Shown here in pieces: positions 5,453 through 12,614 of a DNA stretch of 33,298 nucleotides. The translations under genes were made by a program, and so were the position numbers. The notes under the pieces are model-generated. The model had not been told where the DNA came from. It saw only the letters and a list, made by a program, of their open reading frames with translations, and searched no databases. Numbering within the stretch: the stretch's first letter is position 1; every line of letters begins with the position of its first letter. The stretch comes from a virus, in the IMG/VR virus record IMGVR_UViG_3300033149_002167, positions 1 to 33,298 of that record. One strand, written 5' to 3'.

Positions 5453-5803
5453 ACCCTGTTTCGGTTCCTTTGGACCGCCCTGCCCGCGATCAGGGTGCTT
5501 TATTCGGGGTTTTTTAGCCGCCTCGGTGGGCTTTATGGCTTGCCCTGGACGGCCGGGGTAAAAACCCTCGAAAAAACCGGCTGGTGCCTGCGGCGGCCTT
5601 TTTAGACCTTCACAGTCCAGCAGGCCAGCACTTAGGCGGGAGGCTTTGAAAAAAGCTTCCATGCCGTTCGAGCAGCGCGATCCGTCGCGCCACTCACGAA
5701 GAGACCACCGGGTTAGCCCCTCGGTGGTCTCTTTGATTGCGCGCAGACTATGTGTGCTCCTTTCCTGTTTGAGTGAACGGATTGTGAAACACAAACCGAT
5801 CAT
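5201..5803 (-). CDS. Doubtful 200-residue reading frame
   Basis: An ATG at 5803 overlaps the stop of the gene upstream (ATGA), which favours translation, and the frame stays open for 200 codons. Against this, the product is rich in Pro, Gly, Arg, Lys, Ser and Thr with no recognisable fold, and the DNA is full of inverted repeats, including an 11-bp perfect stem at 5700-5732. A strong ribosome-site-like AGGAAAGGAG (5766-5757) has no ATG, GTG or TTG at normal distance. Only an in-frame CTG lies about 11 bases downstream. If it is not a gene, 5063-5799 is mostly non-coding. Treat as low confidence. Confidence 0.3.
   Translation of the reverse strand: MIGLCFTIRSLKQERSTHSLRAIKETTEGLTRWSLREWRDGSRCSNGMEAFFKASRLSAGLLDCEGLKRPPQAPAGFFEGFYPGRPGQAIKPTEAAKKPRIKHPDRGQGGPKEPKQGPTPTGWFPGNGLVVDPALGATSRSTGIAGGSPPFQNPGIRFLADRATATASTDTTILQSAITIDNPKLRRTPSTQTKGRHVGE
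5639..5660. repeat. 8-bp hairpin
   Basis: GGAGGCTT pairs with AAGCTTCC (one G-U) around the loop TGAAAA. It lies inside the doubtful frame between the hairpin cluster and the terminator-like stem. Confidence 0.5.
5700..5732. terminator. Terminator-like 11-bp perfect stem-loop
   Basis: AGAGACCACCG (5700-5710) pairs perfectly with CGGTGGTCTCT (5722-5732) around an 11-base loop, and flanking A/T adds another pair. On the plus strand it is followed by TTGATT and on the minus strand by TCGTG, so neither side has a long T-run. It could end minus-strand transcripts after the 5800-6123 gene, act as an attenuator, or be a protein site. Confidence 0.45.
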
Positions 5804-6954: not shown

Positions 6955-8563
6955 TTCGTATCAGGTCGTCCATTATCTGCGAGGCCATCTCGAAGGAGAT
7001 GTTCGGGTGAAAACCACGTGGCACGAGAACTTTTGCTTGCTTGTAGGTGCATAGGCCGTTTTGGCGACGCCATCGCAAGTAGTCACAGATCAGGGCTGCC
7101 TCGTTGGCTGATAGCCCGTTGGTTGGGATGCCGTTACGGGACAGGATAGCAGCGTGGTAGGGGTGAATCTGGGAAACGGCGATGGCTTTGATGCTGGTTT
7201 CTGCTGGCAGATCGAACAGCTTGAACGGGCTGGTTCGTGCCGTTTTCCATTTCACCTTGGCCTTGATTCTCTTGCGCAGCTCTGCGTCCAACTCGTAGTA
7301 TTTGCTGTGCGCGTCGCGGACGATTTCGTCAAGGTTTTTAGGCTCGTCGGTGTTGGTGGCCGCCGCGATGATGGCCGGGCGCAGGCTCTTGGGGGTTCCA
7401 GCCAGAGCATCCGCCACGGTGGCGATGGTGCGTTTACCCAATGTGCCGTAGAAGTCCAGAATCAGACAGTTCGGCTTATTGCTGGCGGCAATAGCTTGCC
7501 GGCGGGCTTCCTCTGTTTCCACGGCGTCAACCACACCCGGCAATGGCCGCAGCCCACGCCCGATCATCTGTGTGAGCAGAGCAACACTGCGGGTCGGGCG
7601 AGCGACAGCGACGCAGCGGATATTCGGCGCGTCAAATCCTTCTGTGGCAACTTGGCAGTTGACGAGGAATTGGAACTCAGAGTTACGGAATTGCTTCATC
7701 ATGGCATCGCGTTCTTCGAGCGGTGTTTCGCCCGTAACGATTCTGGCCGCCCCAGGTCGCTTGTTGTTGATTGTCTGGGCCAACAACTTGGCATGGTTGA
7801 CCGATGACGCGAAGACCAAAGTCGGGCGGTCTCCTGCGAGCGCAAGGAGTGGATGCACCACGCCATGCACTGCCTTTTCTCGCTCCATCACATTGGCGAG
7901 AATGGTTGGTGCGAAGTCGCCTGCCACCAACGGGACGTTTGTCAGGTCAACCGACTCGACCAGGATGGACTTTGCCAGCACTGGCACGAGCCATCCCTGA
8001 TTGATTGCCCGCATGGCGGACATTTCGTAAGCCACGGTGTCGAAAATGTTGCCGAGAGCCACCTTGTCGTGGCGGTGTGGAGTAGCGGTGGCGCCAAGCA
8101 AGTGTGGGGCGTTGAAGTACTCTGTTATCCGCTGATAGCTTGGCGCCACGGAGTGGTGTGCTTCATCGAAGATGATGAGGTCAAAGTGGCCTTCATCGTA
8201 GCGGGCGTGCCTGGCCCCGCGACTCATGGTTTGGACGGTCGTAACGACCACATCATCTAGCGTCCACTCAGGAGCCTTGCGCGGCCCTGAGTCCATGATT
8301 GCACGAAGCCCTGTTGCCTGCGCTCGTTCGAGCGTTTGCAACAGGATTTCGCGCCGGTGTGAGACAATGAGCGTCCTCTTTTCCAACCGTGCCATGTTGA
8401 CGGCGACTTGAAGGAAAACATGCGTTTTGCCGGTGCCGGTTGGCATGACGAGCAACACTCTGTTGCGGTCATTGTCGAACGCTTCAAGGATTGCCGAGAC
8501 TGCGTCTGCTTGGTAATCACGAAGCGGAAGGTCCGTCAGCAAGGAACTTGCGAAGAATGTCAC
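6872..8563 (-). CDS. DEAH-box superfamily 2 helicase
   Basis: 563 residues. Motif Q/I region LPLRDYQADAV precedes Walker A PTGTGKT (41-47). DEAH is at 133-136 (IIFDEAHH), motif III-like LLGATATPHRHD near 156-166, then the second RecA-like domain with PTLVFASS, VATEGFDAPNIRC and motif VI QMIGRGLRP. This is the type I restriction R/RadD-like helicase architecture common in phages. The C-terminal region (LCTYKQAKVLVPRGF ... SFEMASQIMDDLIRNG) is a small domain often seen at the end of such phage helicases. It probably unwinds DNA in replication or recombination. It overlaps the annealase end by 47 bases and the primase start by 83. Confidence 0.9.
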   Translation of the reverse strand: MTFFASSLLTDLPLRDYQADAVSAILEAFDNDRNRVLLVMPTGTGKTHVFLQVAVNMARLEKRTLIVSHRREILLQTLERAQATGLRAIMDSGPRKAPEWTLDDVVVTTVQTMSRGARHARYDEGHFDLIIFDEAHHSVAPSYQRITEYFNAPHLLGATATPHRHDKVALGNIFDTVAYEMSAMRAINQGWLVPVLAKSILVESVDLTNVPLVAGDFAPTILANVMEREKAVHGVVHPLLALAGDRPTLVFASSVNHAKLLAQTINNKRPGAARIVTGETPLEERDAMMKQFRNSEFQFLVNCQVATEGFDAPNIRCVAVARPTRSVALLTQMIGRGLRPLPGVVDAVETEEARRQAIAASNKPNCLILDFYGTLGKRTIATVADALAGTPKSLRPAIIAAATNTDEPKNLDEIVRDAHSKYYELDAELRKRIKAKVKWKTARTSPFKLFDLPAETSIKAIAVSQIHPYHAAILSRNGIPTNGLSANEAALICDYLRWRRQNGLCTYKQAKVLVPRGFHPNISFEMASQIMDDLIRNGFRWTRYRPHRVKPKAETPARFKHLD

Positions 8564-9378: not shown

Positions 9379-10497
9379 ATGAGCACGGGCGAAGACGACC
9401 TGGACCTTGTGGATTTGGTCGCGAGCGATGAGGGCAAAGAAGGGGTGCCTGACGGCACGGGCGAGGGCGATGAACCGGACGCGCAAGATACACCCACTGA
9501 ACCCCAGGAACCCGAAGAGCCGGAAGGGGAGCCCGGCGGCGAATCCGGGGATACGGACGTGGAAGAGCCCGATGAGGGTGAGCCGTGCGGCGAGGGTGGC
9601 GAGCCTTGTGGCGCGCCAGAACGGCCTTTCCTGGAGTACATTGCCCAGAATTACGGCGAAGAAATTGCCAATGCTCTTGGGCAGAAGTATGCCACGGACG
9701 AAGAACTGGTAAAGGGACTGCTGGAGGCCCAGAAGCTTGTCGGGCGTAGGGAACACCGCTCGCGCATGTTCGACAAGCTCGTGGAAAGGTTCGGTGAGGA
9801 AGCTGTTGCCGAGATGGTGGCGTCTGGCAAGATTCCTGATACCGTCAAACAGGAACCGACAGAGCCGAAGAAATCGGAAGACGACAAAGACGATCTACAG
9901 CCACCGGAGTTTGACCCGTCTTGGTACTACAAGGTCAAGCTGAACCCCACCACCGGAAAGTGGGAGGCGCTGCCTGGTGAAGACGACACGATACCGGCGA
10001 AGCTTGACCGTTGGATCAAATACAGGGAGGCGCTGATTGATGCGTTCGCAAAAGACCCCAAACGATTCATCACCACACTGGTGGGGGATTGGCGCGAACA
10101 GTGGCAAGCCTTCATCGACGACTTCAACAAACGCGCCCAAGAATACGCCGACCAAGCCAAGAACCTCAACTACCTCGCAGCCACCGTCCAAGCGAACAAG
10201 GAGGTGCTGTTCGTAGATGGCGACCCCCAGAAGGGGCCAACGGAGTTTGGCGAGAAGTTTGTGGAGCACCTGAACAATCTGGCGGGCAAGGTGACCGACG
10301 AAAAGCTCCGCGTAGAACTCGCCTTGAAGCTGGCTCGCGCAGACCTGGCCCCCAAAGGTGGTGCCAAGCGGCCTCTCAAGAAAACTGCTACCCGTGCCAC
10401 CTCTGCGGGGGGGCAGAGGAAGAAGCCGAGCGTCGATGACCTCGTGGATCAGGGCATGGATTTGGTCGAGGCATTTCGTCGAGCCGGCGAACTGTAG
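9379..10497 (+). CDS. Acidic scaffold-like protein
   Basis: 372 residues from ATG 9379, with AAAGGGAG upstream. The first 80 residues are extremely acidic with repeats of Gly, Glu, Pro and Asp. The middle (FLEYIAQNYGEEIANALGQK ... DEELVKGLLEAQKLVG) is helical, and the end is basic with TRATSAGGQRKKPSVDDLVD. Acidic helical proteins with a basic C-terminal tail directly before a major capsid gene are usually internal scaffolds that assemble the procapsid and then leave. No protease motif is seen. The only intervening sequence before the capsid gene is a promoter and a structured leader. Confidence 0.7.
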   Translation: MSTGEDDLDLVDLVASDEGKEGVPDGTGEGDEPDAQDTPTEPQEPEEPEGEPGGESGDTDVEEPDEGEPCGEGGEPCGAPERPFLEYIAQNYGEEIANALGQKYATDEELVKGLLEAQKLVGRREHRSRMFDKLVERFGEEAVAEMVASGKIPDTVKQEPTEPKKSEDDKDDLQPPEFDPSWYYKVKLNPTTGKWEALPGEDDTIPAKLDRWIKYREALIDAFAKDPKRFITTLVGDWREQWQAFIDDFNKRAQEYADQAKNLNYLAATVQANKEVLFVDGDPQKGPTEFGEKFVEHLNNLAGKVTDEKLRVELALKLARADLAPKGGAKRPLKKTATRATSAGGQRKKPSVDDLVDQGMDLVEAFRRAGEL

Positions 10498-10498
10498 C

Positions 10499-10525
10499 TT
10501 GACACGCTAGGTGGCGCGGTATAAT
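10499..10525 (+). promoter_or_regulatory. Promoter for the capsid transcript
   Basis: Perfect sigma70-type hexamers TTGACA (10499-10504) and TATAAT (10520-10525) are separated by 15 bases, shorter than the usual 17. It lies just after the scaffold stop and 317 bases before the capsid ATG, so the transcript would start with the structured leader. Confidence 0.7.
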
Positions 10526-10542
10526 AGAGACAGAATCCTACA

Positions 10543-10829
10543 CGAACCGGACCAAGACAATTTCTGTGAAGTGATAGCGATTGCGGCTTGGCGGCAATCG
10601 CGCTCGGGTGCATTGCTTTCCTAAGCGAACACTGGTCCGGTTCGCGTCGGTGGGATAGGGATACCCGGAAGCTGTGGCTGTCGTGGCCTGGCGATAATCC
10701 TCGTTCAGATGCACTTCCGGCCCCGTATCCCACGGGCGTTCTCGGCGGTTCGCTTGCCCGATAAGCCTTGCGCTGTTGCTTGTCGGGAATCGCGCTTGGG
10801 TACGCTGAGTTCTCTACCTGCGTTAGAAC
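10543..10829 (+). ncRNA. Triple tandem structured leader upstream of major capsid gene
   Basis: Three successive folds fill this non-coding stretch. Unit 1 (10543-10644) is closed by a perfect 12-bp stem (10543-10554 with 10633-10644) and contains an 8-bp hairpin (10577-10584 with 10594-10601) and a small GCTT/AAGC hairpin. Unit 2 (10650-10733) has an 8-bp outer stem and a 7-bp CCGGAAG/CTTCCGG inner stem. Unit 3 (10741-10809) has CTCGGCG/CGCTGAG outside and a 10-bp CCCGATAAGC/GCTTGTCGGG hairpin. Units 1 and 3 share 22 of 27 bases (from 10585 and 10777), and unit 2 shares a weaker version. A final hairpin GTTCT/AGAAC (10809-10829) ends just before AAGGAGG. No known RNA class is recognised. Confidence 0.7.
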
Positions 10830-10841
10830 AAGGAGGCTCGT

Positions 10842-11927
10842 ATGCCTGATCCTATTACGCCCAGAATCCGAACCACCACGCTCAACAAATACGTGCGCAA
10901 GAAGGTCGAGACGATCTATCCGAAGTTGCCGCTGTTGGGCGTTTTGCGTGGGTTTGGCCGCCTGTCGTTCAACAACAGCGGCCGGAAGATCGTGTGGTAT
11001 CCTCGCTATCGCCGCCGCGAACTCGAAACAGGGTTGGGTGAGGCCGTGAGTGCCACTTTTGTGGCCACCAACACCCGACTTGAGGCGGAGTCGAGTTGGC
11101 GGCATTACCACATGACTGAGCGCATTTCGCGCTTTGAGAAGTTGGTGAACAAAGGCAAGGAGGCGCTCATTCGGATCGTGCAAACGACCGTGAATGAGTT
11201 GCTGGAAGACATGGAAGTGGCGTTCAAGATGAAGTTGTACATCAACTCCGGCTCGAATCCGGAGGACATTGACGGGCTCCAGACCGTGCACGACACCAGT
11301 GCAACGGCAATCGGCAGTGCCGGCGACACGCCAGCCAAGAACCCGAGCAGCAACAAGTCATACGCCGGAATTGCGATGCAGTTGGGGGCGTTGGGTGGCA
11401 GCTGGACCGGCCACTTTCCGATTGGGTATGGCGACTCCGAGTATGCTGCTTGGACATCTCTAATCGTTGACGGGACCGACAGCAACTTCTTTGCCAATGG
11501 CACCTGGGCGGGTGACTGGCAGTCGGTTCTCCGGTTCACGCGGACGTATCTTGGTATGCGTACCGGGATCGACCCCAATATCTGCGTGATGAACGCAGAA
11601 CTGCTTCGTCAGGCGATGGATTCCCTCAAGGATGCGCAGCGACTTGAGGTCAGCAAGACGCCACAACTTCTCGACCTCGGGATTCGAGCTTTGGCGTTTG
11701 AGGGGTTGGACCTGGTGGCCGACTACGCCTGTCCGAACGGTCTGGCGTTCATGCTGAATGCTCAGCACATTGAGCTGATGTGTCTGTCACCGCAGCTCTT
11801 TTACAGGAGTGAAGACGACGACATCACCACGAGCACGCAGCTCATTCGGCTTGATTTCGACGGCCAGATGGTCTATTACTCTCCGGCTTGCGTCGGAATC
11901 ATCGACACCGTAACCAACTTCAGCTAA
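10842..11927 (+). CDS. Major capsid protein
   Basis: 361 residues from ATG 10842, with AAGGAGG 5 bases upstream. N-terminal TTTLNKYVRKKVETIYPKLP, the long helical stretch around RFEKLVNKGKEALIRIVQTT and NELLEDMEVAFKMKLYINSG, and the C-terminal FEGLDLVADYACP ... AFMLNAQHIELMCLSP followed by STQLIRLDFDGQMVYYSPACVGII are typical of HK97-fold phage capsid proteins. The C-terminal pattern of a domain describing 'target residues, then comparison to a control surface' is common in this group. It follows a scaffold gene and precedes a small head gene 12 bases on. Expected to form the capsid lattice. Expression is probably set by its own promoter and leader. Confidence 0.85.
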   Translation: MPDPITPRIRTTTLNKYVRKKVETIYPKLPLLGVLRGFGRLSFNNSGRKIVWYPRYRRRELETGLGEAVSATFVATNTRLEAESSWRHYHMTERISRFEKLVNKGKEALIRIVQTTVNELLEDMEVAFKMKLYINSGSNPEDIDGLQTVHDTSATAIGSAGDTPAKNPSSNKSYAGIAMQLGALGGSWTGHFPIGYGDSEYAAWTSLIVDGTDSNFFANGTWAGDWQSVLRFTRTYLGMRTGIDPNICVMNAELLRQAMDSLKDAQRLEVSKTPQLLDLGIRALAFEGLDLVADYACPNGLAFMLNAQHIELMCLSPQLFYRSEDDDITTSTQLIRLDFDGQMVYYSPACVGIIDTVTNFS

Positions 11928-12570: not shown

Positions 12571-12614
12571 AGGGGGAATCTGCTACAATGGTTGTGGCAG
12601 GTTCCCCCTTTTTT
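12571..12614 (+). terminator. Intrinsic terminator after the capsid unit
   Basis: GGGGGAA (12572-12578) pairs with TTCCCCC (12602-12608), continuing inward with CTGC/GCAG and ACAA/TTGT around a 3-base loop. Six T residues (12609-12614) follow. This is a textbook rho-independent terminator in the 103-base gap before the next gene. Confidence 0.85.

Follow-up and report, generated by a model that had tools for sequence, protein, structure and literature searches.

The major capsid gene of the analyzed phage is preceded by a leader that contains diverged tandem repeats. This orphan leader is real and unusual, and an RNA function is plausible for it. As the best explanation, to which we give about an even chance of being correct, the leader would be a noncoding, structured 5′ UTR of the capsid transcription unit, stabilizing and boosting the capsid mRNA. 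The analysis was performed on a window of 33,298 nt, i.e., the whole stretch of the IMG/VR record IMGVR_UViG_3300033149_002167, and the positions of the features are given in Table 1.

Table 1. Positions in the window of the capsid leader, its repeats, and the adjoining features; z-scores of units 1–3 refer to boundaries picked from the predicted fold.
Feature	Position	Strand	Description
Sigma-70-type promoter, TTGACA-15-TATAAT	10499..10525	+	hexamers at 10499–10504 and 10520–10525
Capsid 5′ leader, noncoding	10526..10841	+	344-nt gap; small ORFs without family match
Unit 1	10537..10650	+	12-bp closing stem, inner 8-bp hairpin, core at 10586; z −3.9
Unit 2	10645..10738	+	8-bp and 7-bp stems, weaker core copy at ~10685; z −2.95
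Unit 3	10739..10812	+	7-bp outer stem, 10-bp hairpin, core copy at 10778; z −1.5
Core repeat, copy 1	10586..10609	+	GCTTGGCGGCAATCGCGCTCGGGT
Core repeat, copy 3	10778..10801	+	GCTTGTCGGGAATCGCGCTTGGGT
Shine-Dalgarno (SD) AAGGAGG and 5-nt spacer to ATG	10830..10841	+	read from the sequence
Major capsid protein gene	10842..11927	+	phrog_9953, E 1.8e-13
Small ORF directly 3′ of the capsid gene, 194 aa	11940..12524	+	no family match
Intrinsic terminator	12572..12614	+	17-bp hairpin followed by TTTTTT; z −5.3

The window belongs to a tailed phage. Its head module was identified from PHROG matches: the terminase gave an E of 3e-20, a portal-like protein matched a head-tail adaptor PHROG with an E of 4e-9, and the major capsid protein matched phrog_9953 (Table 1). 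No tRNA or tmRNA genes were found in the window. A 61,191-base IMG/VR contig represents the same phage: positions 332–33298 of the window matched it with 2 mismatches, the leader being identical, and positions 1–269 also matched, as a separate piece. Approximately 60 bases between these pieces (about 270–331) were present in the window and missing from the 61-kb contig, with near-perfect matches on both flanks; this difference near the left end of the window is a natural or assembly variant. Both ends of the 61,191-base contig have 114 identical bases in common, and this terminal repeat is consistent with a complete genome, which is classified as linear in IMG/VR.

The gene upstream of the leader ends with a stop at 10497, and the promoter begins just after this stop codon, so that the gap from the previous ORF to the capsid gene comprises 344 nt. 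The sequence-only reading had placed the leader between a perfect-hexamer promoter and the major capsid gene, and both assignments were confirmed. TTGACA and TATAAT are each perfect and form the sole 12/12 pair in the 61-kb contig; the spacer of 15 bp is suboptimal, and for this reason the promoter was missed by the standard scan with spacers of 16–18 bp. For the 194-aa ORF that follows the capsid gene, neither a family match nor a relative in IMG/VR was found, and its position suggests a decoration or head-stabilizing protein. Since the 17-bp hairpin and T6 lie after this gene, the promoter, the leader, the capsid gene, the small gene, and the terminator form one module, which looks like a transcription unit for the capsid, set apart within the head cluster.

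The terminator hairpin had the strongest fold z-score in the window and was not picked up by the automated terminator scan. In addition, a 16-bp hairpin (GAGACCACCG...CGGTGGTCTC) with a short T-run was observed at 5671–5780 (z −4.9) and is probably another terminator, and a further strong fold (z −5.1) was located at 8261–8370, within the helicase gene region. Beyond the window, at about 52709–53052 of the G001 contig (window numbering), there is another 344-nt gap, which contains a strong terminator-like hairpin with T6 and, after it, several imperfect direct repeats of the GGGGTGTGNRGAATC type. Attenuation by a terminator within the capsid leader was ruled out, as no hairpin with a T-run is present there.

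The long stems described in the sequence-only reading were present in all three units. In unit 1, a 12-bp perfect stem (10543/10644) and an 8-bp stem (10577/10601) were predicted with a stem probability of 0.97–0.98; unit 2 contained stems of 8 bp (10650/10733) and 7 bp (10665/10720), and unit 3 a 10-bp stem with one G-U pair (10757/10787). Three consecutive stem-closed units were also predicted, but only units 1 and 2 folded significantly when taken alone, whereas unit 3 did not (Table 1); these z-scores belong to boundaries picked from the fold, and fixed tiles cutting across the units showed nothing. The main helices had pair probabilities of 0.9–0.99 and persisted when the coding sequence was added. 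A long-range pairing of the 5′ end with the SD, seen in the fold of the bare leader, was gone once the coding sequence was included. The whole leader had a folding energy of −130 kcal/mol and a z-score of about −2.5, and one of 100 shuffles was as good; this z-score is no outlier in the genome, where 13 of 97 equal-length tiles were as low. The GC-rich phage genome is generally well folded. At least three perfect stems of at least 8 bp occurred in 3 of the 193 genome tiles. The last hairpin, proposed to adjoin the ribosome site, is a small, weak predicted SD-ATG hairpin. The SD is predicted to be partly to mostly paired in this weak local structure; the local fold at the capsid start was among the weaker ones of 15 gene starts, and no stable long-range block of the SD was predicted.

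Comparison of the units with each other showed that they are related in sequence. Core copies 1 and 3 were identical at 21 of 24 positions (22 of 27 had been claimed), and the alignment score of 39 between units 1 and 3 was not reached in any of the 2,000 shuffles, the maximum being 36. The proposed weaker copy in unit 2 was likewise recovered, the similarity between units 1 and 2 being reached by 10 of 2,000 shuffles; the similarity between units 2 and 3 was not significant (557 of 2,000). The copies start at 10586, ~10685, and 10778, with spacings of 99 and 93 nt, which gives a period of ~96 bases. This period looks like an old tandem duplication; most likely, a hairpin unit of ~96 nt would have been duplicated in tandem and subsequently diverged. 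The enclosing stems differ in sequence, while the core has been retained between units 1 and 3 and, in weaker form, in unit 2. No further core copies were found elsewhere in the phage, and a covariance model of the three cores gave no further convincing copy in it.

The earlier description of the units as structured RNA elements was supported in the sense of a structured, repeat-built capsid leader, but not in the sense of one recurring RNA fold. In the minimum-energy folds, the core of unit 1 formed a hairpin at the apex, that of unit 2 occupied the distal portion of a long, irregular hairpin, and that of unit 3 supplied the 3′ strand of the 10-bp stem together with a single-stranded stretch. 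As the predicted fold of the core is different in each unit, the repeats share sequence and not demonstrably structure. RNAalifold proposed that the core folds back on itself into a G-U-rich hairpin, with 3–5 compensated pairs among just three sequences. The z-score of this consensus fold was about −1.7, and 21–25 of 400 column shuffles were as good, for a region chosen post hoc and three sequences. Covariation among the three copies was not significant (about 0.06, for the region chosen afterwards, with little power at n = 3). For the full units, 132 of 400 column shuffles were as good as the consensus fold.

A covariance-model search of Rfam 15 gave 0 matches in the window, in agreement with the view that the leader belongs to no known RNA class; at E up to 10, the only match was an mgtE fragment outside the leader (12.7 bits vs. 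200). Searches of IMG/VR and the GTDB species genomes yielded no homologous leader. The capsid, portal, and downstream proteins matched only the same phage among 2.9 million IMG/VR contigs, and capsid searches of the GTDB species genomes and of phage records (the latter at E up to 0.01) detected no relatives. The terminase search for relatives yielded weak, partial matches only. A weak relative was the capsid protein of Bradyrhizobium phage ppBjS10J-1 (24% identity), and a profile of this protein and the capsid protein of our phage gave 79 relatives with 20–25% identity. In the 77 of them in which it was measurable, the gap before the capsid gene had a median of 24 and a maximum of 42 bases, according to a simple ORF-based measure that yields 344 for the window. 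This suggests that the long leader is an addition in the lineage of the phage. The best match of the core covariance model in 81 related loci had an E of 0.15, and the core was absent from 84,980 GTDB species genomes. In IMG/VR, the core pattern gave seven other matches, comprising three distinct sequences within or at the end of open frames, which are chance-like; the stricter and the three-unit consensus core patterns matched only the same phage there.

It is known that 5′ secondary structure shields bacterial mRNA from RNase E and RppH, while terminator hairpins shield the other end (PMC3997798). If the leader acts as a stabilizing 5′ UTR, transcription by the host RNA polymerase would begin near 10532, and the folded units would block 5′-end-dependent RNase access and may also supply processing sites. 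The 3′ hairpin would shield the other mRNA end, and we propose that this combined protection would result in a long-lived, heavily translated capsid mRNA. The conserved core may additionally be bound by a protein of the host or the phage. In the predictions, the leader has stable helices, is untranslated, and is followed by a strong ribosome site. The stabilizing function is supported by the unique promoter, the 344-nt gap, the stems, the z-scores of units 1 and 2, the strong SD, and the terminator. Against it stand the extreme 5′ end, which is single-stranded because the first strong helix lies ~10 nt past the expected start site; the position of the SD in a weak hairpin; the unexceptional fold of the whole leader; and the promoter, which is non-ideal owing to its 15-bp spacer. 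Furthermore, simple stabilization does not need a conserved core sequence, so the retention of the core is not explained by it.

Similar structured untranslated leaders are found in front of the highly expressed E. coli papA and ompA genes and T4 gene 32, together with a strong ribosome site. The T7 gene 10 leader is likewise an mRNA-stabilizing 5′ stem-loop UTR. In contrast to these four, the phage leader is much longer, is composed of three repeated units, and has its helix off the extreme 5′ end. In the present phage, a 3′ terminator hairpin is also found.

The main rival to a stabilizing UTR is a core that binds a protein or a ligand, in which case the leader would represent three tandem binding RNA elements (a translational operator or aptamer array) with the core as the putative binding site; we consider this possible, though not likely. 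The retention of the core within differing stems and the ~96-nt periodicity agree with such an array, and tandem, often triple, arrays occur in the STAXI, pan, and glnA RNA classes (PMC2864571). STAXI RNA consists of tandem pseudoknots, usually in three copies, near DNA-handling genes. The leader resembles it in that a mobile genome carries two to three structured units in tandem, but it is not near DNA-handling genes, no pseudoknot was shown, and the scan of the window with the whole Rfam library gave no STAXI match. The pan and glnA leader motifs also consist of simple hairpins arranged in tandem in 5′ UTRs, which suggests repeated binding; however, they belong to bacterial metabolic genes with many homologs, whereas the present leader is from one phage. 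The array is further weakened by the lack of a common fold (the consensus z being post hoc), the different context of the core in each unit, the absence of homologs in the searches, and the lack of a clear SD-blocking partner. A new tandem phage RNA class, in which three copies of a binding element with the GCYTGKCGRNAATC...YGGGT core in different stems gate capsid synthesis or RNA polymerase read-through, appears rather doubtful.

The position of the leader between a promoter and a strong terminator, with co-oriented head genes beyond, also recalls the antitermination RNAs of HK022. The put RNAs are ~70 nt long and have two stem-loops; putL directly follows its promoter, and putR is located ~270 nt past the start site (PMC9378689). 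By analogy, the leader RNA would bind the elongating RNA polymerase, which would then pass the terminator at 12572–12614 into the terminase and portal genes. Both are phage leader RNAs with stem-loops, and only the position relative to the terminator suggests such a role. In addition, put is a single two-stem element of early operons and not three units, and the terminator may simply end the two-gene module; we consider put-like antitermination quite improbable. An unlikely reading, to which we give somewhat more weight, is that the leader has no RNA function and is what remains, in duplicated form, of inserted or decayed DNA, or else a site acting at the DNA level, its hairpins being typical of a GC-rich genome. 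The ordinary z-score of the whole leader, the absence of the insertion from relatives, and the fold of unit 3, no better than chance, agree with this. On the other hand, it is rare for phages to retain 344 nt of idle DNA, and the leader is placed exactly between the sole perfect promoter and a strong SD. Moreover, the folds of two units are significant, and as many 8-bp stems are rare among the genome tiles. A coding function, as a small leader peptide or a 280-aa antisense ORF (10449–11291), is highly improbable. Open frames do exist in the leader region, including a 46-aa ORF at 10709–10849 that overlaps the capsid start. No SD precedes 10709, and the antisense ORF overlaps the real capsid gene. 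A coding frame supported by homologs had been named in advance as evidence against an RNA element, and none emerged: at E ≤ 0.001, neither the small ORFs of the leader nor the antisense ORF matched any protein family; Pfam gave nothing up to E 1, and PHROGs gave one chance-level match (E 0.069).

DNA phages usually raise capsid synthesis through promoter strength and operon order. As the 77 distant capsid relatives leave no space for a leader, a folded module of 300 nt appears to have been added in this phage. If the repeated core is functional, the leader would represent a new cis-acting RNA that serves high-level or timed expression.
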